Shown here: positions 23,501 to 63,700 of the stretch, in pieces
Layout of the letters: each line of letters begins with the position of its first letter
Position numbering within the stretch: position 1 is the first letter of the stretch
Assembly: GCF_000003815.2 (NCBI RefSeq)
Contig: NW_023365701.1
Location: forward strand, 415,287-479,286
DNA: 64,000 bases
Source: Branchiostoma floridae
Taxonomy: Eukaryota; Chordata; Leptocardii; Amphioxiformes; Branchiostomatidae
Direction of reading: 5' to 3'
Program-made: the position numbers and the translations under genes
The notes under the pieces: model-generated
What the model was told of the DNA's origin: nothing
What the model saw: only the letters and a program-made list of their open reading frames with translations
The model's database searches: none

Positions 23501-26500
23501 GCCGCTGGTGTATTCGGCCACACCTGGTAGGATTTTCACGCGGTTAGATGGTTTAGCCCAGTGGGATAATTTGTCGGCCACACTCCCGCCGTGCAAAACT
23601 CGTACCGGGTGTGAAAGATTACCCCGGCGATGGAAAGACCCTCCTGTCCCGCAGGTAGCCTGGCCAATCCACGGTAGACTGGATTCCAGGTTAAGGACAC
23701 AATGGCGGGGGCATGGCAAACTCGGGACCTATAGATTCAGTGTCGAATGCTCAAGTACAAGTTTGGACCCCCTACTAGTTTATAAAATAATAGAGAACAG
23801 TCTTACCTTCCATGTGTCCATGAAGGGAACATCAGGAGTAGCCAGTACTGCTCGGCCATTCTCGTCTTTAGGATAGTACACATCCCCTCTCTGTGAACAA
23901 GGAAAGTGTGTAGATTGACTAGACGTTAAGAGCCACAGACATGCTTTAGGCCAAGGATGTCCTTGTTTAGAATAGATCAAAGGGGCTTGCATGAATAAAT
24001 GAGGGAAAATGAATCATACAAGTGAAGTCAGCCTGCTTGACTTAAACGATACGTTCAACTGCTGTCTCTTTGTTGAATTTAGCAAAAAAGCTTTGATGGT
24101 ACAGTCAAACCGGTGTACAGCAGCCACTCATGCAACTGGCCACATGTGACCACTATAGAGAGAAAATGTAAATAGATCACAAGCAATAAGTTATTTGCAA
24201 ACTCAAAATCTTTGCAAATCATGATCATTTTTAAACCTAGTGCAGGGTGACATACGGCTGCTGTATGGTCACAATAGGCAGTGTTTGTGTACATTGTATC
24301 TACGGGACTGAACATTAATTGTGCCACCATGTTAGACAGGTGGCTGCTATAGACTACTAGTATTTACTGATGTCCATGGGAAAAATTTCAAGGGACTGAC
24401 AAAAAGTGACCACAGCTTATAGCCAGGGATCGATGTGCAAAGGTGGCCGCTGATACAGTTTAAGATTTTACCAGTTATATATATCATATGGTGGGTTAGA
24501 TAATTATTCCACTGACACAACTGTCCACCAGCTTCTATCAGTTTTGAGTGTAACGTTACAGAGATATAGCATAGAATCGGATATAGATGTTGATTTATTT
24601 TAATTAACTTAGACAAGACAGAATGCAAACCTACCGTCCATGCTACAGGGAAGTGCATGAGGTACAGGTCCAAATAGTCTAGTCCCAGGTCGGTTAGGCT
24701 CCTCTGACAGGCTGGTAGGACATCATCGGGGTGGTGCCTCGTGTTCCACAACTGAAACGGGAGAGACAGAAATTTGATTCAAAGTAGGACAGAAAGTCCA
24801 TAAGTGATGTTAGGTTGCGTAATCAATCCTTTTTCATGTAGGCATGCGCTTTCTGAAGAAAATAAAAAAAATAAGCTACATTGCTTTTTTTTCACTGACA
24901 GTATTAAATCATGCTATCTAAAGAGACAGTAACTGTAGACGTTATAGAGAAGGAAAGAAAGATAATACCACCAAGAAATACAGTATCTGTAGGAGAGAGA
25001 TGAGGAAAGGAAAGAAATCACGCCACTAAGATTAATAATAGTTGGGCATAGCTAGTTGGTGAAAAGTAGTAAGCTAAGAGAGATGCAAATAAGGAAGGAA
25101 AATGATCACGCCACCCATGTTGGTTTATGTTGTATTTAGTTAGACTAACACCCCTATGTTACGTTGGTTCCGTCCGATAGTCAGTCCGACCACCGACTCC
25201 TACTGTACGCCATGTTGGAATAAAGCTCCTCAAGTTAGTTGCACTTGTGTCGCCCGTGAGTCGCTCCCTTTAGCGGCCCTTGTGGTCTCATTGATGAGTT
25301 TTTTCTTCCCATAGACTTCTATGTATTAATTCGTGGTTTAAATGGGCGCGTTCATAATGAAGCTACGTGAAATTTCAGCAGATTTTTCATTCTATGTCGA
25401 GCACATTTACCCTATACCGTGGGAAAAAATTGCCAATGTAAACTATACGTAGGAACTTTTTTTATAGCAATTACAAACTACGATTAGTCAATCCCCACAA
25501 AAGGCACTTTTTCGCTGCTATTGTACAACCGCACCACTCAGAAACCACGACTGTGTACCTCCGACCTAGCGCGCGGCTGCAAAACTTTACCTGCTAATTT
25601 CTTCAGTTACAAATAAGCTTTCACCAATCTAACTTTTGAGATCAGTTCCGCTGGCTAAAAGGGAATTTCTCACCGCTAAAAACATGCGTCCGTGCAGCCG
25701 TTCATTTTTGGCTCGGATCTCTTTTAGGGTCCCCACTCGCGGAATAATACATCAATGAGACCTTGTACCTAACCGGTGCATATACATGTACATTGCAGTA
25801 CGGCGCAAGTTTTCTACCAACCCTTCTGTTTTCATCTTTAATTCTGAACCACCAGCTACATTTTTATCCTATATAAAATATAGCTTAAAATACATTCATC
25901 AAACACAAATATGCATCAAGTGTAGATTACTGTAAACAGGTTGATTTTTTTGTCAAGACTTGAAGGAGTTCCCCCACCCCTTCCTCCCTACATCTGCTTG
26001 GATATTACAGTGAATGAGGCGTTGACGAATCGGCTGCTAACCTTACTGGTGATGAAGATATCCTTCCTCTCCACCACAGATCCGACCTTCTCCTGTAGCG
26101 CCCGTCCGACCGCCTGCTCTTCCGCGTAGGATTCCGCATTGTCGATGTGACGGTACCCCGTATCTATGGCAACCTTCACGGCTTCGTAGATTGGTTCAGT
26201 GGAAGTCTGCAAATCAAAGAATAATTAGTCATTAAATTATCTGGTGTATTTGCAGCCAGTACTAGTAGGTACCCAATGTGTTGAGTAATGAGGCTGATTT
26301 ACATGCTCGAGGCACCTCTTTGAATACGGAATCCCCGTTTTACGTCCTATCCGAAAAATGAATTGTGTGAATTCTTGGTCTGGCTACAGCATCCGGTCGT
26401 GTCTAAGTGGTCTCTCACCCAAGTACTGACCGGACTGCACGTTGTTTAGCTTCCGAGGTCCAAGGGATTGGGTGTACCATCATCATCATCATTGGGTGTA

Positions 26501-37899: not shown

Positions 37900-40800
37900 T
37901 TACGAGATGGTGCACTTCTCTTTCAAGGCTGCAAGGAAGTGAAAAAGTACATTAGTTAGTGCAGTTGACTAACTGTAGTATCATATGGTATGTACACGTA
38001 TCGTGTAGACCATCGGGAGGGTTGCTGGCTAAGCATCTGAATGTGAAATACAACGAATACATTAACACAGTACAAAGTCAAACTTTCTTCCAACACAAAA
38101 GCACACAAAATCCGTGTGTACTTTTATGTTAATGTGTACTATGATTATTACCAACACTGATGAGCTTCCATGATAATGCGCCGTGATACTTAAGCTTGTA
38201 AGTATTAGCATTAGTGCTAAAAGTTGATTTTCCTGCATAACGATACGACATTCTGTGTTATAGACATATACAATAACGTACATGGCTTAGGAGGTGGAGT
38301 TGCTTTCTTCTGCTGATCTAGCACCTCTTCTAGCTGCCTGTACAAATCTGCCTGTTCGTTCTCCATCTTCTTGATTTTTTCCCTCGTACTGGCTCTTTCC
38401 TTCTCGAGGAGATCCTTGAGAAGAAATTTGGTACCAGATCGTTTATTCAATATTTAGAAGAAACCAATAAGCTATACAATGTTAATTCCAAACACTTTGA
38501 CGAGACTACTAGTACGAGGGCGGTTCAAAAAGTAATGTCACTGGTTTTATAACAGGCTCATTATTTCATCGAATGAGTTGAAATTTGGCACCAAGGTACA
38601 AGAATGTATCCTCTTGAGATTGAAATATCTCAATTTGTGGTTCAGATTTTTATGAGTGACTGAGTTGAGTTCAAGATGACCATACCCTTGTTATTCCGTC
38701 GGAAGAAATTATAGGGTCAATTAACGTGCAATTGGTAATGTCCCTGAATCACTTATAGAAATTGTAAGAAACTAAAATTGCACTTGTATCAAGTTGCATT
38801 TCTCTATAAGCCACATGCCTATTTTCACCTTTTAAATCCAATCACTTATTCTTTTTTCGTTCCTGTGGTGAAGTGAGGTTGTCAGTGTCGTAATTAGCGG
38901 TGGATCAGGGTGGGCTGCTTAAAGTTTCCGTAACCGACTTTTTTGTTATTAACTAAGAAAAAACAAACTTAGCACACTTCTTCGTCTTGAAATAGTTAAT
39001 AATTGTGCCAAGTTTCGCATCTTTTCGCTAATTGAAAAGCAGTATACAAAAACCTTTATTCAACAAATCACGCATTTGGCCATTAATCAAACTGCCTGTA
39101 ATATAGCAACTCGCTCCATTCTAGTGGCTGTAAAATATTAGCCATTAAGAGTTCAAACATGAACTTTGGCATATAATCTATAGAGATATTTGTCATTATT
39201 CAAGTGAAATTTTAGCTTCCTACAATAGTTTTGAAATGGTCAGATCCAGAGGAACTGATCTCTTGACAAGGTTCTAAGAGTGTGGTCACCTTGAAATCAA
39301 CTCAGCTGCTCATAAAAATCTGAACCACAAATTGAGATATTTCAATCTCAAGAGGATATATTCTTGTACCTTGGTGTCAAATTTCAACTCATGCGATGAA
39401 ATAATGAGCCTGTTATAAAACCAGTGGCATTACATTTTGAACCGCCCTCGTAGTTTTAAACATATGAAAAGGAATCTTGAACTTCTGCTGCTTCATCTGG
39501 AATTCTCATTTTGTATTTGACATATGCTTTCTGTAACCATTCATTCTTTCCATGAGCAGGAGGACCTTATGTTCCTATGTTCACGTTGCAATGTAACCCT
39601 GTTGTTCTCCATTCATTCTTAGACCTGTGCATTTACTTTGATTAGATATCACTATTTTTCCTCACCCTTGCAATTTCCGCTTGTTCCGCCATCTTCGCAT
39701 TCTTGAGGTCCTCAATCCTCTGTAGCGCAACCGCATGTCTCTCCTCCATGTCTTGCTTCATCTAAGATCAAAAGTTGTAATAATCAGAAATGACAGCATT
39801 TTACGACGTTTAAAAACCTTCCCAATGGATGGTATCTCCTGGATAAATCAACGCATGGTCAAAGACAAGTTTTCAATTAAATCTAATTAACTCAAAGTAC
39901 AATAATCAAATACATTTGACCCATACTCGTACCTGTGTGATCTGTCTCTCGTACTGTTGAATTATTTCCTGTAGAGTTTCCCGTTGAGTTTGCAGCTGGT
40001 CCTTTAGTTGCTTGAGTTGGTTCAGAATCTCTTCCTCCCTTTCCTTGGCTCTGAGCTCTGCTTCATGTGCCCTTTGTTGTTGTTGCATTAGCTAGAGTAT
40101 CACGAAGATTGAGATATAGCGCATGTCTTGTATATATATGGCTGCTCATTTGCTATAGGCGTTGGATCACTTACGGAAATTAAAAAAGAGATTACCAGCC
40201 TGATCTCTGACATATGTGTAACCAGACGCAAATGACAAGGAAAATACCACACGTTCCATGATGGGCTCACACTGATATATTTCTTTGTTCAAGTGAAAAA
40301 AACAACTTACCTTTTTTTGATACCCCATCTTGTCAATTTGGGCCTGTAGCTTCACTGCGCTTGTGTCCATCTCCTGTAGAACAACCCACTTCTCCGGACC
40401 ACGTGCCTGCTTCTTGTACTGTTCACGTGCGGCAGCAAGTTCTCTCGTCAACTTGTCGAAGTCAAAGTCTGGAGGCGGCGACTCGACTCGTTTTCTAGCA
40501 AACAGACCGGAAGAATATAGACATAACTAACTAACGTATAGTACATGATAATGATTGCAAATCTTAGACGTCATATTTCAACTTCTTGATGCTAAGTTCT
40601 TCGACATTATTGTGTAACATATTGTGACAGAAAAAGGCTTTACCAACAGCTAGTGAATGTACTAGTCTCTACCAGACTAACTGCATTGACTATAGGGAGA
40701 ATAGTTTGCAAGGGGATTTTGGCCACCAGATGGTTTCTTTCTCTGGAGGGGGAATGTTAACCATAGGGTGGACTGATATTCATGGTAGATTGTTCCCATT

Positions 40801-43800
40801 TTTTGCGGAATTCTACGGTTCCCACCAAGAAGGCCTAGTGGAGGCTATATATTACTTTGAAGTCGACGAAGGCTCAAATGGAAAGTAATTTCTGTCTTTA
40901 TAAGGACTCGGTTGGAGAATACCTGATTGGGTCCAGCAAGTGTTCATAAAGTCCTTTGCAGAAGTTCTTGGAGTGTTCTCTGTTCTGCTGGATGTAGTGG
41001 AAAAGCTCCCCACCTGTAACGACCAACCCGCGGATACCATCAACCGCGCGCTCTTCTTGTTGAACTGGAATGAAGAAGGCAATAACGAATTGAAAAGAAA
41101 ATAAAGAAAAGAAGTATATGAATATTTGACGGTTCTAAGTAATGTATACTCAACGTTATAAACCAATTCCTGATAGCTGGAGATTCATTATTCACCATTT
41201 ATGGCACGTAAATGACGTTACGGCGTCATAACCGATACAAAATCACATGTATCACAAATGTCAACTCTACATACCTAAGCGTTTTTGCATCTGGTCCACC
41301 ACAGCGTTGATCTCACCAGAATCCTGATTCTCTGTACCCTGATTCCCTGTGCTGATTTGGAAATGACCAACCTTCTTTAGAAGTATGGATGTAACTGTTT
41401 TGACCGAAGCATTGTGGAGTCCCATGATTGTAGGCTGTATCGGAGTGTCGCTGCAGAGAGAGAGGGGGGATGGGGGTGAGTGAGAGAACAATCTTTATTG
41501 ACACGACAAAAGCACAGCGGCTTTCGTAAGGTCTACATGTATAACAACTACTTACAATACAACTAAACACACATATATGGATATGTATAGGTATGAATAA
41601 ATCAACATATAGGGTCTAGCATGTCATTAACACTATTAGTTCTGAGAGAGAAAGAGACAGATAACAAATGAAGACAATTTATTGAAATCCAGATTCAGCC
41701 ATTCACAAAGATGCGGTCAGGATCACACAATATGAAATTTCAGTTTTGCATGGTGTAAGCGTATCCATCTGAAAAGTTTTGTTAAAATGAAAATAATTCA
41801 AAAATTTTGAAGCATGTTTCCTTACATTTCGCCTTCCTCTAATGGTACTTCCCCATTCTTAGTCATCCGGGCTTCGGCAATCTGAGCCTGCAGAATAGAG
41901 TAACACTAAGCTTACAATAACTGGAAACTATGTATATTGTTATGATACAATTTGTATCATCTGTATCTATTGTAATTATGCATGGTTATCGTTTCTGCTA
42001 ATAGCTGATACAATTGTTGTAACTTTGCCACAAGTATTAAATGTTCATTAGCTCTCACTTGCATCTGCTTGTTGTACTCCATGACCGCTTCCTCGATGGC
42101 CCTGTTCTGCATCAGCTCTATGGTATTCTGCCAGGTGTTGTCCAGGGCAGGAATGGAGTTGGGGTCATTGACCGCTTCCACATACTGCTTGGTCATGATG
42201 CTGAGGGCCAAACCTGAGGGAACATTAGATACGATATTAATCGGTCTAAAGTAAGCACTTTAGACAGGTTCTTGACTTCGAATTCATTGGATCCAAATGT
42301 AGAATACTCCAGATAGATGACATTTTACGTACGAAGTTATTCACCATTCTAGAATCCTGTGGAAGGGATTTCAAGAGACTCGATGCTACAGACAGATTTG
42401 AATACATATGAAGATGCAACAACTCCCAGAATACAAAAAGAATAGGTAAACATATGATAGACTGCTTGACCATTAGGAAAAAATGCCGAAATTCATGATT
42501 TAAAGATCATGTAAGTTTCGAACATTAACCTCTATTTTTTTTAATGGTCCTTTCTTACTCACCACTAACTTTAGAGCCCTCGTGGTAGCCTCTCTTTGCA
42601 CGTGCCTTAAGCAACAGCCTCACCACCAAATCGTCTACTCCCTTGTTGAATTCTGGGTTAAGGCTGTCTGTGTGCTGAGCTATGTTGTTCATCACCTCCT
42701 TCTTGTCAGAGGGTCTCTCCAGGATTGCGCACTCCGCAGATGGGAAGAACGTAAGGATCGCCCGTCGTACCATGTCCGTTGTTGATTCTTCAAATGCATT
42801 AGGATTACGTCTAAAGACCTAAATATAAAATATGATCGATTAAGGCAGATTTGTAATAGTTACCCCATGGGCGGGACGAGGTTTCTGTGTATATCAGCGG
42901 GGGAGACTAGAAATCCCCGAGGTGGCGGGCTTGCTGATATACACAGAAATCGAGGCTAAGGCCATGGGGTAACCAACTTAGCCCATGGCATACTTCCCCG
43001 AAGCTTTTCTACTTCATCAGCTCTACAAAATGTTACTTTATTTTGTCCTGAAAGTCCACAATCTTTCTTATTGATGGAAAAGCTGTGACAGACAGTGTCA
43101 GGCAACAACAACACAAGGTCGTTAATCTTGTCAAGACCTTCCCAAGCTGACTGCCAGGACAGACAGAGGGTCTGTTCATATTCCTCTGGGCAATTAAAAG
43201 TCAAGCATAGGATTGGTCAGTTATCACATGACACAATTCTGGTCTCAGAAGAAGGTCTCAAAGGTAAGCGAGGATTGGTCAGAACAGGTCACATGCGTAT
43301 ATCACCCACACTTTTCAGGCTGATATCACCCCAGTTTTCTTGATATCAACACACTTTTCCCCTCATTTGCGAATGATTATGGTATGAAGGCTAATGCAAA
43401 AAAGACAAAAGATATGGTCATCAGCTGCCGTCGAAATCCGCTAATACCCCCACCACTTACGCTAAGGGGCGAGCCCGTTGAGAGGGTCTCTTCATTCAAG
43501 CTCCTTGGAGTAATGGTCAGCAATGATCTTACATGGGGCCCCCATGTTGAATACATGCAATCAAAGGCTCAACCGCGTATACATTACCTGCGTGTAGCGA
43601 GACGTGCTGGGTTACCTTCAGATTTTCTTTTGCAAATATACATATCTTTCATCCGCCCGTTGCTCGAGTATGCCTCCCCTGTCTGGGGCGGTCTCCCACG
43701 TGGTGTCAGATGACTTGGAAAAAGTTCAAAAGTCATGCCTTAAGATATGTGGCTTACCCCGTAACCATCTGCCAACCCTTGAGTCTAGGCGAAGGGAGGC

Positions 43801-46800
43801 GTCTCTGCGCGAGCTGAAAAGGATTCTGAAAGATCCATCTCACCCCTGCCATGTCTTCCTCCAACCACATGAGGGATCGCCATATGATCTGAGACGCAGA
43901 AAGCCGTTCAAACAGCCAGTCAGCCGCACTGAGAGACACAGGAACTCGTTTGTGGCGAGGGCGGCGAGAGACTTGCCAGACTTAGTGTGAGCCCCATGCC
44001 ACCATGTGCAATATCGTTCGCTCCCATCATGTGCAATATACATGTACTCAGTTATTTTGTTAGTGTTGTGTTGATATGTATGTCGCTAAGAGATGGTTTT
44101 AGTAATTGTATTCTACCTATTTCTTGATTTTAACTATATATGATTTTAACTGCCAATATATTAGTACTATTAACTTGTTTCTATGTCAAATCAACGCAAT
44201 TCAGTCTAAGCGACTTTGACTGCCATGTTGATTTAATAAAGTTTGATTTTGATTTGATTTGATTTGCATGAAATAGCAGCACACTTTTTTTCATAGCACC
44301 ATACTATGTGTATATAGCAACAGGAAATGGGGGCTTCTCATTGGCTGAGGGGAAGTAGCCATGGGCTAAATAAGGTTATAAAACTGATACTCCAGTAGAA
44401 TTTCCTTTTATACTATTGCTATTCGTGTTTATTTTCAAGACTATGAAAAGGGTTGTGCCATTAAATCCTATACCTTACCCTTTTCACCAAGTAGTCGGAA
44501 GGATCCATTTCCTTGCCGTTCTCATCCTCCATCTTCAGAGACACGTCACGTAACAGCCACATGAAGTCCGGGAAGAACTTTCGGAATGCTGACACGTTTG
44601 AAGCCTCGCCTTGCTTCACCGTGACCCCTGTAGCCAGCTTGATGAAGCACCTAATAAAATATTAGGACAAATGTCATGTTTTGACGTGCGGCATTACGCA
44701 ACAGCGAGTAAAAAGAACGAGCATCACTGGAAACATGAGCATGAGCTGTATACAAAATCTACTCACTGCATCTTCTCCAGATCCCCCATGTGCGGCACAT
44801 TGAGTGAGTTATAGATGAGTCTGGAGGACAGCAGGATGGTCATAACCAGGATAGAGGCGTCCTGTCCAGCACTGGCAGTTACTGCATCTAGTGTGAAATG
44901 TTTTTCTTAACACTGATGATAAGGCTATCGACAAATATGGAAATTCTGTACTCTTTAGAATTTTTGCTTTGACCCATAACACTATCACTAGTTGGGAGCC
45001 AAATTCTTAATTGTTGCAGCCTGCATGAAATGGACAATGGTAAGATAGCAATGTATAGTAATATGGCACTTTTTGGTGAACCTTTATTACGTATCGCTAC
45101 TACGTGGTATTTCAGTTATGCATGATACACAATGATAATGTAATGCCATCCAAAGCATTCTTACGTTGATACTAACGAATCTGGGAAATTAAACCCAACT
45201 CTCTAGACGTCAGGCTCGTTATAAACAATACAAAGTACCAATTCCTTCCGTGTCCAGTAGCACGATAGTGAAGTCCTTCCCCCGCAGCACCTTGGTGCCC
45301 ATCCAGATACCAAACGTCTGGGGGTCCATGCGGTGGCCCAGCTCAAAGGCATCCGCAGTGCCAAGTAACCTAGAACAGCAATAATTTCTTTGATTATTTG
45401 TTTTGCATTAGATGTGCAAACATTAAGGTTAAGTGCGACGGGTTATTCGAATACATCTAGCCACCGCTTGCATTTATAATGCTGGTGTATTACGCCGAAA
45501 ATTGCTACACCCAATCTACCTATACGAAACAGATATAAAGTGAGATACGGATAGAAATAAAATACTGTCTGCACAGGTAATGAGCCCCCCCCCCCATTAG
45601 CCACAAGTATTGCGAAACACTGTACACAGTGATAAGCAATTCAGTCAACATAAATTCAAGGATTCAAATATTTGGCTGACCCCTGCCTTTGCAGTTACCG
45701 CGTCGTTGTGCAAATACTGGTAAGATCGAAAGGCCACAGAACGTATAGGTGTGTATGAAGGAATAGGCCAAGTTTACTTTGAGCTTAATTAATACATCAA
45801 ACTCAGAAGTGTCAATGTCTATGAAAAGGTCACAGCCACGAAAACACGCATTTGTTTTGAGTTGATGGGTTACCTCAGCATGGAGAAAGTTGACATGCGA
45901 TTTAACTATTTGCAAACAGCGATCGTGATAAGACCGGTGCTTTGAGACCAATAGGTACGCCAGCAAATTATGATTACCTGGACAGGATGTAGCTTTTCCC
46001 AGACCGACAGGGCCCGCAGATTGCCTGCACACTCACGGGCTCCTCGATCCCTTCCAGTAGCTCCAACGCCTCGGGAACGACATGCAGACTTGTCCGCTGG
46101 TTATCCTGAATCTTCTGTACTGCACCGGTAGAAGCGTTGTACTTCAGATCGTTTGGCAGAATGAGCGGGATGGACGAGCCCGGGACGACATGCCCACCTC
46201 CCTTCGGCTTCAGTTCCTCCACCTTGAACCCGAACTCAGAATGTAACTTTGATATGCCTGCTGGAAATAGATTGCAAAATGACTGGACTGTGAGAATGCT
46301 GCATTTTTTACACGTAATTATACAATATCGCACATGCATGCCAAGCTGCGTGTCACCCTTTATAACATATTTTCATCCTAAAGTTGATTGACCACAGCAG
46401 AGGCGTTTTGTTCCAAAGGCACCTTATATTGAGTCTAGCTTGACTCCACATACTGTATCACAATATCCCATACATCAAGAGCAAATATCTGTAAGGATCA
46501 AACAGTTAGGGGGTTTCCATGGGATATCAATCATATAATGGAATCAATATGGCGTAAGCCAGAAACAAAAGGAACCATAAACATAATTCGCGTATGCAAT
46601 AGCATTATGAAGAAAGGGCCAGAATTTCAACATACTTACTCCTCTGATCCCTCTCCAAATCATCGACTTCTTTTGCTAGCTGTATTTCTTTGAGGGCTAT
46701 CAACAGATCCTTCAGCAATCCAAGGTTTCCCTCGCCAATTTTGTTATCAGCTTCTAGCATAGTGAAGATCTCATGGGGTGTAGCATTTTCAATTTTTCCT

Positions 46801-46946
46801 TTGCCAATATGATGATCAGTGATCAACATAGCTCGCAAACTTTTCACTTGGTCTTCAGATAAGTGTTCATTTATCTTCGAGTAAAGCTTGCTACGAGGGG
46901 ATAGCCCACACTTGACAGGGGATGAGCTGCCCTGTGCAGACGCCAT
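37900..46946 (-). CDS. GBP-A: DED-containing guanylate-binding-protein-like GTPase, 801 aa
   Basis: Exons 5' to 3': 46946-46640, 46260-45978, 45369-45239, 44887-44767, 44650-44479, 42818-42563, 42213-42059, 41887-41826, 41450-41275, 41064-40923, 40494-40311, 40091-39933, 39761-39666, 38414-38282 and 37928-37900. Phases all agree. Residues about 20-100 resemble a death effector domain (INEHLSEDQVKSLRAML, IFTMLE, LLKDLL, VDDLE). The GBP GTPase follows: P-loop GPCRSGKS at 185-192, GIWMG, DTEG at 236-239 and LLRDV near 313. Then comes the helical domain and a Glu/Gln/Lys-rich coiled coil (about 603-790). The protein ends CTIS, a CaaX prenylation box identical to that of human GBP1. The start in CACCATGG is preferred. 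An ATG 48 nt upstream would add a hydrophobic leader (MYLFTYGVLLFF), and a 3' splice site seems to lie between them. By family it should hydrolyse GTP and assemble on membranes. The death-signalling role is inference. Confidence 0.9.
38515..39450. mobile_element. Mariner-like element with ~176-bp terminal inverted repeats
   Basis: It is flanked by TA on both sides (38513-38514, 39451-39452). The ends begin CGAGGGCGGTTCAAAAAGTA and stay complementary for about 175 bp (38515-38690 with 39275-39450). A TA target points to the Tc1/mariner superfamily. The roughly 580-bp middle has no transposase reading frame. It lies in a GBP-A intron. Confidence 0.75.
41490..41640 (-). mobile_element. Retroelement 3' tail in a GBP-A intron
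   Basis: The minus strand reads ...CGCTGTGCTTTTGTCGTGTC then AATAAAGATTGTTCTCTCAC, a typical 3' UTR end with AATAAA. The 5' portion is absent. Confidence 0.45.
42859..42974. mobile_element. Short hairpin MITE in a GBP-A intron
   Basis: GTTACCCCATGG and TTTCTGTGTATATCAGC at the left are inverted at the right (GCTGATATACACAGAAA, CCATGGGGTAAC), with a short GC-rich loop. Confidence 0.7.
42976..44371. mobile_element. MITE split by a non-LTR retrotransposon
   Basis: ACTTAGCCCATGGCATACTT at the left and GAAGTAGCCATGGGCTAA at the right are inverted repeats. Most of the sequence between them is the retrotransposon at 43384-44270, so the older element appears to have been the insertion target. Confidence 0.6.
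43384..44270 (+). mobile_element. 5'-truncated non-LTR retrotransposon (reverse transcriptase 3' end)
   Basis: It encodes the C-terminal part of a LINE reverse transcriptase (FKLLGVMVSNDLTW, SFIRPLLEYASPVW). A +1 frame change near 43690 is followed by DDLEKVQKSCLKIC and a tail domain ending at a stop at 43988-43990. The 3' UTR ends in AATAAAGTTTGATTTTGAT and TTTGA repeats. The best fit is a CR1/L2/Jockey-type element. It is inserted antisense to GBP-A in an intron and is inactive. Confidence 0.8.
45579..45592. repeat. Poly-C run
   Basis: A homopolymer of about 13 C in a GBP-A intron. Confidence 0.7.
46640..46946 (-). CDS. GBP-A exon 1: death effector domain
   Basis: This exon encodes residues 1-102 plus one base. 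Against the DED fold it shows the LxxINExLSxxxVxxLRxML helix 1-2 region, GKGKIENATPHEIFTMLE (helices 3-4) and GNLGLLKDLLIALKEIQL (helix 5), ending in VDDLERD, much like FADD. The E/D-RxDL signature is degenerate: the position reads KEIQL, so Arg and Asp are missing. The exon ends in phase 1 (AGG A, then GTAAGT) and joins the P-loop exon as Thr103. Confidence 0.82.
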
Positions 46947-54700: not shown

Positions 54701-57700
54701 TCTCCCTATAACAGCCAGCGTAATCAGTCTGGTCAAGATTACGAATACAATCCCTGCAATGGCAATGACATATCTAACATTACAGAAACTCTCTACCCGG
54801 AGAGTGAACAAAGAGAGCAGGAATAAAAGAGGAAACGCTTTATCAGCACCATGAATGAAATTGTGAAATGCGTGCTTACAGCATCTCGCGTCTTGTCCAT
54901 ATTTCGTTGGCTTCGAAGCTGCTGATGCTAATGCGAACCTCACTTTTGGGTTACTTAGGCTTCTTCATACACACCGCTTCTCATCACAGTTAGCCAATTG
55001 TTTTTCAAGATCGGACGCAGAGAGATCGTCAGAAATGTTTGCCAGAGTATAGGCTATAGGCATGAGACCGCGTATCGTTGCCGTACAGGAAATTTTGGTA
55101 TGACTTTCGTGTGGATACGGCAGAAAAGGACAGATTTTAGGGGGTATGGTAGAAACTAGTGGGTACGGTGGCTTATCATAGTCAACGATTACAAGTCAAC
55201 GATTACAAGCTCCCTAATTTAGGTCACCCCAATATAGTTATCGGCAATAAATAATGATAATTACCGTGGTTTGATACCCCTCAATCTTCTCGATTACGGC
55301 CTCTAGCTTCCCTATGGTTTCGGCCATCTTCTCCTGAACAGCCCCCTTCTCCGGACCACGTGCCCGCTCCTCGTACTGCTGGCGTGCATCAGACAGCTTT
55401 TCCTTCAACTGGTCGAAGTCAACGTGGGGAGAAAGCGACTCCACATCTTTTCTAGCAAACAGACAAGGCGCTTGAACTTGACACTGCAGGTTGCGTGTGT
55501 GGTGTGTGCGTGGGGCGTTTCCGGCATTGTATCTCCAGATTTTCGGTACATGGGTTGGTTGCCTGCTGATGCTCAGGTTTGACTTGTCTGTGAGCCTCCT
55601 GGTGTTTAAACTTGACACTGGAGGTTGCCTTTTGTGTGTGCGAGGGCGTTTCTCTAGAACACAATGGCCAGGTTTGATTTTGGGCCCCCTAATTCTTAAA
55701 CATCATACTGTAGGTTGACCAAGTTGTGTGTGCTTTGGGCGTTCCAACCAATATCTGCTTGGTTGTGTTGAGTACAGCCATGGCTGGGTTTATGTTGCCA
55801 TGTGATTGTGGGTTTATGTCTTAGTTTATATGTGAAACTGTCTCCTGTGTTGCAGGGGCCTATGCCACCTTCAATGTATCAGGTTACTCTGATCCGTCCC
55901 CTGTTGTAGTGGCAAAAGTATGGCATGTCAGGTTCCCTTAATCTGTTGCTTTATTGGTCAGGTATAATGGTATAATTTGTGTTGCATATCAGTCTTTGTG
56001 GTGCTTACAGAGTTGTATAGTACTGTGTTTAAAGTTCTGGTACAAGTTCCTGTGCCCCATTAGGCAATCATGGTTAAACAGAAGAACTTTCTAAAGTGTT
56101 GGAGAAATGTATAGAGCGTGAGCGTAAGAGAAAGGTATGTGTATGATTTTTTTTAAAGTTGATACTATAATGTACTTTATGTCATCATTGCATTTGCTCA
56201 CTTTTGTACTGATGGTCAAATTAGATATTATGTCCTGGGTGTTTTATCTGTATTTTAGTTTGGCCATTTGGGTCGTTAGTCTTATTACTGCAGTTGGCTA
56301 TATATTTTGTGTATGTGGTTGGGATTTCCTGTGTTTCTTTTCTTTTCTTTGATGATGCCATTTCCATACTGTAAATAGGTACTGTGATATTTTTGGACCA
56401 GTCATATTCGCTTTTTTTTGCCTTGTTAATCTATAGTACAGCCAAGTATAGTAAAAGTGGTGAAGGCTTTGTTCTGTTCTAATTTACGTTTCATGCAGGT
56501 TTGAGGTCTACGAACTCTTGTTTTAACAATCTTTGTATCCTATCACTACGCAATACTATTCAAATTGCAAATAGGACGAACAGGTTATTTGCTAAGAAAT
56601 GAATGTATGGAAACATAAGGAATTTATAATTCAATTATGCGTTAATTGTGTGCCAAAGCCTGCCACTTAGACACACACATACTGAAAAATGTTGATATAT
56701 AAATATCTGCCTGGGGTCAAAGTCGATGCTAAGAGCAAAGAATCATTTGATCCCTTTTAACCGGATGATCTACCGTTACTTCAAGCAGCAAGCAGACTGG
56801 GATGGTTTCAGAACATTCATTGCTGCTCGAGATTCCACTTCCAACTAAAACTAAACCTCGAAGATAGCCGCTTCCTGCTTGGACTCGCTGGCATTTATAA
56901 CCTTGTTCCCTCAAAGAAATACAACCAGAACGTTCACCCCAGAACGACAAAGGATTATGTTACTTTCTGTCTCAATTATGCCCCCGTCACATGAGGCAAA
57001 AATCAATCGGACTAGTCTACGAGCTCTAAATGACATTTTCGTGAGTAAGACGTCCGGTGTTCTCACGATCATCTTGCAATTTTTAGGGATCGCCGGCGAT
57101 TTGCAGGGGTCGTACGACGGTCGCGGTGCAGCCAAACATGTACTTAACATAAGCGACAAGTGGCAGGAGATCTCTGAGATCGCAGAGCTCGTTACCGAGT
57201 CCCAGATCGTGCGTGCAAGTCGTGCGTACCTCGCAAGGGTATCGGTCGATATTCGATTGATAGTCGTGCGTCAATCCAGCACACACCTAGTTATTAATCA
57301 TCGAGCGCAAATCGGATGGCGAACGCCGTCAGTCGGGCGACGTTCGCCCGACTACCATTTGTTTACAAATATCGAATTCCTGGGAATGTGAGGGTTATTC
57401 TGACATTGTGGCCCCTGCGGCAGTATGCAGGCTGCCTTTGTGACACAATTTCTTTTCTTTCGTCATTTCTAGTATGCTTGCGTATTCCATTAATTGGTTA
57501 AAAAGATTACGACTACAACACAAACAACATTTAAATTATTGATATCTTGCCTTTCTGTGAGGAACGTTTTGTGTTACCTTATCCGCGGGCAAGAGGTCTT
57601 GGGAGGTTCAATATCATAGATTTATTCACAGACGATCGTACGAGCCTCGCTTATATGTGACAGGGACAGTTTTGGGACCATCTTAAGTTAACTACGATCT

Positions 57701-60700
57701 TTCAATCAGCCGACCTTCCTGCGATCGTGAAATACGCCCTAAGATCGTATATCATGTGACAGGCTATAAGGAATCATGTGAAAGTTACCTGATTGGATCC
57801 ACCAAACTTTCCCAAAGATCCTGACAGAAGCTCTCAGACAGTTCTTTGTTCTGCTGGATGAAGTGGAGAAGCTCCCCGCCATTAACGACGAACCACTCCT
57901 GCTTCCTGGTGGTGCCGTCGGCTGCCACATAATCAGCTGTACGCTTCTCTCTTTGAACTGCAACAAAGAACTTCTGTAAATCTAGTAGGGGAACCTTCGA
58001 CTATTTGAGCCTTTTCTAAATTCATTTCATTAGAATGATATACTGTATATTTGTTGAGGTGACAGTCTTTTAACAATAACATTAATATCAAGGCTTTGTG
58101 ATACAGTGATCCTATAACACCCTTGAGCTGTTGTACCATGGACATGGTTGAAGTGTTCGTCAGAAATATCTTCATTTCCAATGGGTAGTCGTCTCTATCA
58201 TTTTCCTGCTCATGCAAAGGCTGGCAATATTTCAAAGTGCTTACCCAAACGGTTTTTCATTCGGTCAACCAAATTGTTGTTCTCACAGGTCTGATCCTGA
58301 AAATGACCGGCCCTCTCCATAAGCGTGTCTTTGACATTATTCAACGCCTCATTGTGGAGGTCCATCAGGGTAGGCTGGCTGGTAGGACTCCTGAGAAGAG
58401 ATGAAAATAGTCAACTTGGAAGGTGTAGGGTACAGGTTTGGTCATGGATTATAGAAGAACCTTATTGCACCACGATTGCACACGGTACAATGTATGGCAA
58501 CAACTATTACACAAAGTACAAAATAGAGGTATAGAATAAAACTTATAATAATAAGAGCTTACATTATTAGTTTATATAGTATCAACATCGAGTGGACTAA
58601 TCATTAGTTTGGTATTCCTTCTAATAACAAAGCAGCCCTTGATATATTTGCCTATTTTTGCATTATGGGAGTTGTGACATCTAAAGATATATACAAATCT
58701 GTTTGTAGCATCGAGTCTCTTGAAATCTGTACTTAATTCATCACGTAAAATAACGTATATAGCATATTCCATGTGAAATTCATCTTCAATATACTTCGGG
58801 CAGAATGAACGGAACCTTTGGTCAGGTCTGTAGTATCTGCCTGATAACTTGGAATTATTTGCAAGACTTAATGTAGTATCTGCCTGTTTCGATATTAATT
58901 TTTGGCTACTGGTTCGTGATTGAGTTATTGCTGTGCAAATTTCAAAGTTACTTATATCATAAAGGTATGTTTCTTGTTCATAACATTCTTTTGATTTGCT
59001 AAGAAGAGACAGTTTTGAATTGTTTTCAATAGAACTAAACCACTGTTGTATGTATATATCTTGTAGCCAGAGGCGTAATTGGTTGACAATATAATCTGCT
59101 TCATAAGCCCCAGGTTTTGTCAATGTTTGTCGCGGTAATAGAGAATATCCTTAACATGATTAATCCAGTCATAGTCACCAGTAAATACAGTGTTGATATA
59201 TGTGACCTTGTCCGTCAGGATTTGATTTGTTGAAATGCAAATTCCCCGTATAGTGAAGACGGTTTAGACGTGGACAACCGTATAAAGTAATAGTGGAAAA
59301 ATGTGTCATTACACTATAAACTTGACAAAATGTTTTTTCATGATGCATGGCGTAAACGTTACCCTGTACTGTGTGTTCCATTTCCCCGGGTCACGGGTTG
59401 TATTTCATTCTCTGCATGTTCCTCCAATGGAACCTTGCCATTGTTTGTGGCTGCAGCAATCTGGGACTAAGGAATAACAAAAAAATCAACTATAACAACT
59501 AGAAATGTCTTACTGAATACTAGATGCCAGTGGTGGTAAATTCTGCATCGTCATTTACCCAAGAGAGTTACAATCCAAACTGAAGGCTAAACCTACGACA
59601 TCTGGCATTAGGCAGTAGAATAACTAATGATATTCAAAACATAACTAATTTTACAACAGCAATATTAAACAGCTTAAGCAATTCTCTCACTTTCATCTGT
59701 TTATTGTACGCCGTGACCGCTTCCTCAATGGCCCTGTTCTCCATGAGCTCTATGGTGTTCTTCCAGGTGTTGTCCAGGGCAGGGATGGCGTCGGGGGCAT
59801 TGACCGCTTCCACATACTGTTTAGCCATGATGCTGAGGGCCAAACCTGGGATGATCATTCGCATAGATCAAACAACCAAATCTCTGACCAGAATGAAGGT
59901 AAGCTGGGCACAGTGATAAGACTTGTAGAGCATCATCATTCTTTGTACTTACCCCTAATTGTTGAGCCCCTTTTGTAGCCACTCTTTGCATGTGACCTCC
60001 GCAACAGCCTCTCCGTGAGGTTTTCCACACCCTTGGTAAATTCTGTTTTCAGGCTATCTGTGTGTTGAGTAATGTTTTTCATCACCTCCTCGTCACCAGA
60101 AGGCCGCACCAAGGTGGCGCACTCCACAGATGGGAAGAACGTACGAATTGCCCGTCCTACTTTGTCACTGGTTGACTCATCCTCAAAATCATCCTCATCG
60201 CCCTGACGTTGAAGGACCTAAGATAAAGAACAGCCATAGTATGTGACTTGTGCATTAGCCAATAGTGATCATGGCAACTAGGACTTCTTTTTTTTACTCA
60301 ATGGTCACCACGTAACAAGGTCTGAAGGCCACTCAAGGTTACGGGTTACATGATTGGAACTGTAACAGCATCTCTTCGCCCTAGGTCAGAAACATCATGA
60401 TTGAGACCAGCCCAATTGCTCACTATGAGTGAGGACTAACTGGCCCAATAGGCGAAGCAGGGGTTACGAGGGCTGCTCGGGAGATTCCCTACCCCTATTT
60501 TGGCCGGAATGGTTTGATCCGCTCATGTTCGCACATGTGGCGGGTTCTTTAATTAACGTCCCAAATATTCTGAAATACGAAATTCTCTGTACACAAGGCT
60601 GTCATCTTATACACAAGGATTTATCACAATGGACCTGAAGTTCAAATTCAAATACATCATGACATGTGACAATCCCTGCATGGCAGATATAGGAAAATAT

Positions 60701-63700
60701 ATTAAAGAAAGTTTAGACATTAGAAACTCCTCCAATGATTGTAAAAGCCACCAATGACTGTAAGAAACTTATCCCATACTACAACTTCTGTATTAGTTAG
60801 ATATGTAGATGTAGATGCCATACTTTGTACCCCGTACAATTGTTGTGCAATAAAGCTATCTATTTAACGTGCTTGAGGTGTTGCTCTCCCCGAACACGGG
60901 ACCTCCTATCCGAAGGACGACCCGAGCCGAAGCTAGGTACTCATTTTCACCTGAGTGAAGTGAGGAAAGTCGTGTAAAGTGCCTTTCCCAAGGGCACAAG
61001 ATCGGTAACACGGCAGTCGGAGTCGAACCCGCAACCTCTCGGTCACGGGCCGAAGAAACTGCCACTGCGCTACACGGTCCCGCTATCACACGCAAGGGTC
61101 ACAATTCCAGCCTGGCACCAAAGGTAGCCACATAGCAGTTTCTGCCTCCCCAACGTAAGTCAGGTACCCAGTTCTAAACACCTATGTAGAGTGAGGAAAG
61201 TAGAGACAAAATGTATTTAGATTTCATTTTTCCTCTTTGGAAGCACCACTGTCACTACATATCACGTACCTTACCTTGGTATACAAGAACTCGGTAGGAT
61301 CCATTTCCTTGCCGTTCTCATCCTCCATCTTCAGAGACACGTCACGCAGCAGCCACAGGAAGTCTGGGAAGAACTCACGGAACGCTGATGCCTGTGTCTT
61401 CTCACTTTGTTTCACTGTGACCCTTTTAGCCAATTGGGTGAAGCACCTGGCCAAAATTTAGATAAGACAAAGGGCAGAGTGCCATTGTACACTGATCATT
61501 TGTCATATAGCATTTCATTACTCAGAGATAAATAAAAATTACGCAATTGCTAGAATGTAGTCACAACGTCATTCGAATAGCTGTATAATCTACTCACTGC
61601 ATATTTTCCAGATCTTTCTGATGCGGCACGTTGAGTGAGTTGTAGATGAGATAAGAGGACAGCAGAATGGTCATCACCAGGATAGAGGCGTCCTGACCTG
61701 CACTGCCCCCAACTGCGTCTGAAGTTCGAACTTATTTATTTGAACACACGTACACAAGGGTATCTTGAAATATATTTTCTGTACTATTTTGAATTTCCTG
61801 TTTGATCCTGGACACTATCCAAGAGGGAACGAGTTGGGAACGGCATGTACGTACAAACTCCCTGAAATAGGAAATTGTATGATAAACCAGTGATTTGGAG
61901 ATATATGATACATGATACATGCGACTACTTATAGCCTGGGTGCCAAGTAGTTTTGGTCTCCTTAGATTACCGAATTTGGGGGTGACGCAAACCCTATACT
62001 GTAAATGTAGAAATGTTCGCGGTGGATTTATAATGTTCGCGGTTTTCGCGGTGACCACTTTACCGCGAAATTAAAACCACCGCGAACATTTTTCTATTAT
62101 GCTATTAGATTGCAGTCTATGGTGTTACCGCGAAATTAAAACAACCTCACGTACCTATTCCTTCCGTGTCCAGTAGCACGATAGTGAAGTCCTTCCCACG
62201 CAGCACCTTGGTGCCCATCCAGATACCAAACGTCTGGGGGTCCATGGAATGGCCCAGCTCAAAGGCATCCGCTGTACCAAGTAACCTAACAGGTGGTATA
62301 TATTCTTTTAAAGCATTTTGCAGTAACTGTTACTGGTATTCGATATTATAATTATATCAATAAACAGCAAAATGGCCAAAAAACCGCCATGGAATTGTGC
62401 AGTGGTAACTGTATGGACCTAACCGCGTATATTCCAAATTTGTTATCGCACAATGACCTACCTACCAGTTTTATTAGCAACAACGACCCACCGACTCACA
62501 GGAGTTAGAAAGACTTACTTAGAAAGGGCGGGCCTCAAAAAGCCGCACCCCCTTCTCCTCTCAGGTTGACCAAAAAAGGCCCGTCTGAATAGAGTTAAAT
62601 CTAGGTCTATCGCCAAAATTCTGTTGTTGCCCCACCTTGAGAGGATGTAGCTTTTCCCAGTCCGACAGGGGCCGCAGATTGCGAGGACGCTCACGGGCTC
62701 CCCGATCCCCTCCAGTAGAGCCAAGGCCTCCGGAACGGTCTGCAGGCTTTTTCGTGGGACGCCTTGTACCTTCTCGACTGCACCGGTGGACGCGTTGTAC
62801 TTCAGGTCATTTGGCAGAATGAGTGGAATGGACGAACCATGAACAGCCTCCCCACCTTCCTTCGGCTTCAGTTCCTCCACCTCAAACCTGTGCTCAGAAT
62901 CTAGCTCTGATATGTCTGCCACAAATAAATAGCAATGCCATGGTGAAAAGGCTGCGGTATTTCGTAATATGCATTAAAAACTCGAACAAAATGTATGCAC
63001 AAATACGACAGATCCCTGTTTTTGCCTACATACGCGTATTCTACGACAGATGTCTTTCAAGACGTCATCAGATTAGATTTCTAGTAAATATTCAAATTAG
63101 CATGATCAAATTACAACTGAATATGTAGATTAATCATTATTGAACTAGTTAAACTGTAATTTCAAACACAATGTGGACTCACCCAAATTTTCGACTGAAC
63201 AGCACCAGTCTATGTCAAGGAATGACTGCTGTCGTGACGTCACGTTATCGCGTTATGCAGATAGAACACGTGACTCAGTGAGCAGTGGATCATAGGTTGC
63301 AGGAAGTCTATGGCGCCCACCGTCTATGTTCAGGGATGGTTGTAAAGCTCTGATGTAGATGGCTTCTTTGATCCCTCTGGCGGAAAAGTCTGGCTCCAGC
63401 CATCTACATCGGAGCTTTACAACCATCCCTGAACAGAGACTGCTTACCGTGAGTCACGTGTTCTCTCTGCATAACGTGACGTCATGACAGCACTGGATTG
63501 TCAAGACTCGTAAAGCTGCTCGCCCACCCCCGATATTTCTTTTTCCAATTCTAATTAATTGACCACTGGCCCGGGGCTGATGTAAGCAATGTAGATTCTT
63601 AAGCAGCATAAGTCATTACTGTACTAATTTGTTAATAACAGGATGTTATGACGTGTGGATATTACGGGAAACTGTTAACGAAATCATTTCAGCTTGATAA

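Follow-up and report, generated by a model that had tools for sequence, protein, structure and literature searches.

Does a death effector domain (DED) encoded just upstream of a GBP-family GTPase in the amphioxus Branchiostoma floridae belong to the same protein, and what would such a protein do? The question is raised by a 64,000-nucleotide stretch of contig NW_023365701.1 (positions 415,287 to 479,286 of the forward strand, assembly GCF_000003815.2; hereafter the window), where a first-pass annotation had proposed a minus-strand gene whose DED-coding first exon is spliced to the exons of a GBP. Read from genomic DNA alone, this N-terminal DED-GBP architecture is supported by domain profiles, in-phase splice sites, its presence at four loci, and purifying selection.

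The window gene (46946-37900, minus strand) comprises 15 exons that join into a single 801-aa frame with one terminal stop, its 801 codons holding neither an internal stop nor a frameshift. All 14 introns are GT-AG with phases consistent across the junctions, and the positions first given for the two end exons and for the 46640/46260 junction were borne out, as was the proposed 15-exon frame. Exon 1 opens in the start context cacc-ATG-g, codes for residues 1-102, and ends in a phase-1 GTAAGT donor. The acceptor of exon 2 is a NAGNAG (46260 or 46257), and an 800-aa product is therefore also possible. Earlier models of 797 and 799 aa were dropped when paralogue models put the start of exon 4 at 44887, giving 801 aa; the Pfam scan of the window protein was run on the 797-aa version.

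Exon 1 scored above the cut-off of the Pfam DED profile (48.8 bits versus 35.9; E = 8.5e-13 alone and 6.7e-11 in the full protein), which upholds the assignment of the exon at 46946-46640 to this domain, and its best sequence matches in the PDB were FADD (E = 5.4e-5) and caspase-8. In agreement with the annotated GTPase, residues 160-411 matched Pfam GBP (PF02263; E = 6.5e-46, 157 bits versus a cut-off of 21.1), with approximately 60 aa separating the DED and GBP matches. GBP_C (PF02841) followed from residue 416 (E = 4.8e-13) in two stretches, the best of which covers only positions 1-61 of the 297 in the profile. The best PDB match for the GBP part was human GBP1, aligned over approximately 320 aa (phmmer, E = 2e-41), and the P-loop GPCRSGKS with its Arg, Lys, and Ser, the DTEG motif, and the LLRD motif all align with that protein; we presume that the aligned P-loop (GxxRxGKS, the arginine corresponding to R48 of human GBP1), DTEG, and LRD residues carry out the same roles here. 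No death domain, caspase, or CARD match was found in the Pfam scan of the window protein, and TRADD-N was not among its Pfam matches at E ≤ 1, although a divergent TRADD-N could escape Pfam. The C-terminal end is instead CTIS, a CaaX box of the GBP1/2/5 type and the prenylation motif of human GBP1 (PMC2998424). This ending occurs in all three DED-bearing copies covered to their end, namely the window gene, the copy at C143:3361 (both joined models), and that on C258 (as a pattern behind an acceptor); coverage of the C167_95 copy stops short of its C-terminal end.

Within the 513 Mb assembly containing the window, exon 1 as query found 68 DED hits (E ≤ 1) and the P-loop exon found 12 hits. For four of these 12 close P-loop exons of GBP genes, namely those of the window gene, C143:3373, C167:95483, and C258:18112, the same strand also carries a DED exon of the exon 1 subfamily, lying 383, 498, 984, and 1015 bp upstream. 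The chance expectation is approximately 0.0006 DED exons in the 1.5 kb upstream of a P-loop exon and in its orientation, an estimate that uses a 1500 bp limit set afterwards and treats hits as independent. The four loci are duplicates of each other and hence not four independent events; judged from these sequences, the arrangement is one retained through duplication and divergence. A phase-1 donor on exon 1 and an in-frame acceptor on exon 2 are present at all four, in agreement with the predicted in-phase splice of exon 1 to the P-loop exon. The copy at C143:3361-11436 gave a full 15-exon, 806-aa model with 68.8% end-to-end identity to the window protein, and DED and GBP both exceeded their Pfam cut-offs in each of the three further loci modelled. 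Paralogue exons were joined by a script requiring frame continuity; the C258 and C167_95 models consist of exons 1-7 only, and the last modelled exon of each ran on to a stop, this run-on being trimmed before the Pfam scan. PYRIN and GBP_C matches in the C167_95 model were both below cut-off.

The ratio of nonsynonymous to synonymous substitution rates (dN/dS) between the window DED and those of the three other DED-GBP copies was 0.39, 0.32, and 0.37 (bootstrap upper bounds 0.81, 0.58, and 0.68; dS 0.39-0.54), and the interval lay below 1 in five of the six pairs among the four DEDs. The P-loop exon gave 0.24-0.39, and the 21 pairwise comparisons among seven related DED exons, whether or not these are linked to a GBP, gave 0.23-0.70. 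The DED exon thus codes for protein under constraint, although this constraint is somewhat weaker than that on the GTPase.

The surroundings of all 68 DED hits were surveyed against all 12 P-loop hits, 12 of 23 GBP hits, 12 of 104 NACHT hits, and 8 of 94 caspase hits, chosen by eye by contig. Within 6 kb, five DED hits had a GBP, six a NACHT, and two a caspase, and 55 had none among the loci entered; as only part of the GBP, NACHT, and caspase hits were taken, these 55 should not be read as free of partners. On C18, two DED hits precede the genome's best caspase hit by 3.5 and 4.2 kb in the same orientation. In a donor scan covering 12 DED exons, all eight close relatives in which a donor was recognised have it in phase 1 (one has a stop before the donor), while three exons had no donor by a simple pattern and a DED on C6 was ambiguous. 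At C6:24028571/C6:24033091 (L031/L032), a divergent DED exon precedes a GBP of a different subfamily by approximately 4.3 kb on the same strand; with a weak GTTTGT donor, an intron of 4.2 kb, and an ATG that falls just within the GBP exon, this locus is only suggestive of a second DED-GBP lineage. The DED at C13:4118855, approximately 16 kb from its GBP exon, was left out of the count. The contig ends 1.1 kb from a further DED exon of this subfamily (C143:503359-503661, plus strand; L025), which also has a phase-1 donor, and any partner exons may therefore be missing from the assembled piece. The DED at C10:16947817 (L035) is 65% identical to the window DED, with caspase hits at least 44 kb downstream and none of the close P-loop exon hits on C10. 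A dense array of DED exons at C17:18.28-18.90 Mb may correspond to the DED-TRADD-N-WD40 expansion that PMC8195603 describes in Branchiostoma.

Cephalochordate GTPases were reportedly the subject of a study by Li et al. in 2009 (MBE). Human GBP1, for which we know of no N-terminal DED, shares with the window protein the G domain, the P-loop, DTEG, and LRD motifs, GBP_C, and an identical CaaX box, whereas the C-terminal part of the window protein is longer and more divergent. In human cells, GBP1 coats bacteria, which requires its farnesyl tail and catalytic activity, and the coat is a platform for caspase-4 (PMC12091997). Consistent with the first-pass statement that some fish GBPs carry C-terminal death-fold regions, zebrafish Gbp4 joins a GBP to a CARD, acts through Asc, and is linked to inflammasome signalling (PMC4932187); as described there, its death-fold domain is a CARD at the C terminus rather than a DED at the N terminus. 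DEDD2-clade TRADD-N proteins, in which a death-fold domain (for example a DED) is usually present, include fusions to GBP GTPases (Kaur 2021, PMC8195603), but the window protein has no Pfam TRADD-N match and only the short spacer between DED and GBP. Amphioxus DED-NACHT hybrids, for which direct triggering of apoptosis was suggested, were described in 2008 (PMC2575513); there a DED exon of the same subfamily precedes a sensor NTPase, with NACHT in place of the GBP GTPase, and the text of that paper does not mention GBP, guanylate, or GTPase. In B. floridae, 57 DED proteins were counted in 2007 (PMC2246300), and in B. belcheri after poly(I:C) a GBP5-named gene changed by log2 -10.75 and FADD by +9.60 (PMC5752451). 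Literature searches on DED-GBP architecture and invertebrate GBPs turned up no N-terminal DED-GBP, with the supplementary tables of Kaur 2021 lying outside the text consulted, so overlap is possible. The earlier claim that none had been described thus stands to that extent, but close kin are known in the TRADD-N-GBP fusions, Gbp4 with its CARD, and amphioxus DED-NACHT. What is new here is a death-fold GBP with an N-terminal DED and a GBP1-type CaaX box; death-fold GBPs as such were already known.

The architecture is present in the DNA, is conserved at four loci, and includes a DED under constraint. We consider it probable that the gene encodes an 801-aa DED-GBP-CaaX protein of a small amphioxus family that is prenylated, assembles on membranes, and uses its clustered DEDs to recruit a DED partner into a caspase-based death or inflammatory signal. 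By analogy with vertebrate GBPs, the prenylated protein would bind GTP and use its G domain and helical stalk to assemble on membranes of pathogen or host, with its C terminus in the membrane and its N terminus toward the cytosol, an orientation in which assembly would concentrate DEDs on the surface. Such a dense outward display would then recruit a DED-bearing partner of the adaptor, DED-NLR, or DED-caspase kind and through it elicit the signal. Candidate partners are FADD1/caspase-8, as amphioxus caspase-8 binds bbtFADD1 through DEDs (PMC3196919), and the DED hits upstream of the C18 caspase. A bolder version, which we put forward tentatively, is that a single polypeptide serves as both membrane-coating sensor and DED seed: the GTP-driven coat might nucleate a DED filament and caspase activation, merging a GBP coat with signalling of the extrinsic-apoptosis type, and the DED might be a swappable first exon that is shared with DED-NLR genes and gained or lost among GBP copies.

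Several results weigh against these proposals. In the FADD alignments, the window DED has E-I-Q-L at the RxDL position and Ala at the F25 position; we take the RxDL motif and the F25 hydrophobic patch to be features of FADD/caspase-8-type DEDs, and engagement of FADD or caspase-8 is therefore doubtful, although the domain belongs to the same family. A single-sequence AlphaFold model of the DED, in which five helices were called against the six of the death fold, is of low confidence (predicted local distance difference test, pLDDT, 67 for the best of five and 50-56 for the others), and a fold search with this weak model gave no match at E ≤ 0.001, the top match being the FADD DED (probability 0.99, E = 0.15). 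The initial description of the domain as FADD-like accordingly holds insofar as FADD heads both the PDB sequence search and the weak fold search, but not for the RxDL and F25 positions, nor for the closest partner-linked DEDs outside the GBP copies, which belong to NACHT genes. Between the C258 and C167_95 DEDs, dN/dS was 0.54 with an interval of 0.25-1.47 that crosses 1. The reading frame of exon 2 extends into intron 1, where an ATG lies 27 codons upstream in the window gene and 31-32 upstream in the C143:3361 copy, and a DED-less isoform of the window gene is thus possible. Eight of the 12 P-loop hits have no DED hit from the exon 1 search upstream on the same strand of the same contig, and in a weakly supported tree of 11 GBP copies (without C1:20339703) those bearing a DED do not cleanly form one clade.

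The eight DED-less copies are the tandem paralogue in the window, two on C167, one on C19, a partial one on C143, and three on C1. The P-loop exon of the tandem paralogue is 77% identical to that of the window gene, and no DED was detected upstream of it to the window end (64000); the nearby upstream sequence of the C19 copy is N. Exon 2 has an in-frame ATG at its head in none of the four DED-bearing copies and in four of the seven DED-less heads examined (two on C167, C1:17856, and C1:20339), the window paralogue having none; two heads could not be judged, C19 because of N and C143:495 because only its later part aligns. Restriction of this ATG to DED-less copies fits a translation start in exon 1 where the DED is present. 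A single origin of the fusion was considered and set aside, as the tree does not separate one gain followed by losses from repeated exchange.

The same start codons bear on the proposal that exon 1 and the GBP exons reside mostly in separate transcripts, one for a short DED-only product and one for a GBP started in intron 1. Both the intronic ATGs of the window gene and C143:3361 and the exon 2 ATGs of DED-less copies would suit this arrangement, but C258 and C167_95 have no such intronic ATG, and the phase-1 donor is present and the in-frame acceptor kept at all four loci; we regard it as quite improbable. That the gene is a prediction artefact or a decayed copy is scarcely credible. The family does hold decayed or partial members (a DED with a stop at C19:6472, a GBP exon 11 with a stop on C19, and the partial C143:495), but against this stand the intact 801 codons, the second full copy, and purifying selection.

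Unlikely, yet deserving more weight than a passing remark, is a real fusion whose DED does not activate caspase-8 and instead pairs with the DED-NLR class or dampens in the manner of PEA-15 or cFLIP, restraining the GBP or a caspase. The closest DEDs with a recognised partner domain outside the GBP copies stand before NACHT exons (C11:19649496, 57% identical; C6:1860724, 54%); NACHT identity at these two loci (L037 and L038) comes from matches in the NACHT search, the L037 frame having also been Pfam-scanned. The window DED moreover has no RxDL motif, and identity is only 29% for the two DEDs that lie shortly before a caspase. Pfam nevertheless scores the window DED as a normal DED, and one death-fold GBP of tested function, zebrafish Gbp4, is an activator (PMC4932187). 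We continue to favour a membrane-assembling DED-GBP that would recruit a DED partner toward death or inflammatory signalling.

Features of the window gene and its tandem paralogue (positions within the window)
Feature	Positions	Strand	Evidence
Exon 1: ATG and DED (aa 1-102, Pfam match 23-99), phase-1 donor	46640..46946	(-)	Pfam, PDB, dN/dS
Intron 1, 379 bp; in-frame ATG 27 codons before exon 2, possible alternative start	46261..46639	(-)	
Exon 2: GBP N-terminal segment and P-loop GPCRSGKS; NAGNAG acceptor	45978..46260	(-)	
Exon 3: switch region and DTEG motif	45239..45369	(-)	
Exon 4: GTPase domain; start 44887 revised from paralogues	44767..44887	(-)	
Exon 5: LLRD guanine-recognition motif (human GBP1: TLRD)	44479..44650	(-)	
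Exon 6: end of GTPase domain	42563..42818	(-)	
Exon 7: GBP_C helical region begins	42059..42213	(-)	
Exon 8	41826..41887	(-)	
Exon 9	41275..41450	(-)	
Exon 10	40923..41064	(-)	
Exon 11	40311..40494	(-)	
Exon 12: charged region (by eye)	39933..40091	(-)	
Exon 13	39666..39761	(-)	
Exon 14	38282..38414	(-)	
Exon 15: ...SLKEKCTIS stop, CaaX prenylation motif	37900..37928	(-)	
Tandem GBP paralogue, CaaX-like CTIL (pattern) rather than CTIS	55259..62913	(-)	tblastn

Among other features of the window, intron 13 contains an element (38513-39452) with inverted arms of 177 nt that are 93% complementary and 586 nt apart, resembling a small DNA transposon. Overlapping frames in intron 5 (43324-43990, plus strand) resemble a C-terminal reverse-transcriptase fragment of a non-LTR element, and an open frame at 24347-24778 on the minus strand encodes what we take to be aldo-keto-reductase-like sequence.

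In the vertebrate examples, GBP coats and death-fold platforms are largely linked via separate proteins. The amphioxus protein, which combines an N-terminal DED with a C-terminal lipid-anchor signal of the GBP1 type, makes this link directly testable in a vertebrate outgroup, and the DED-bearing and DED-less paralogues of one genome offer a natural comparison for the contribution of the DED. This layout, which recurs in several copies, suggests that membrane assembly and the triggering of a death or inflammatory signal may be combined in a single protein.

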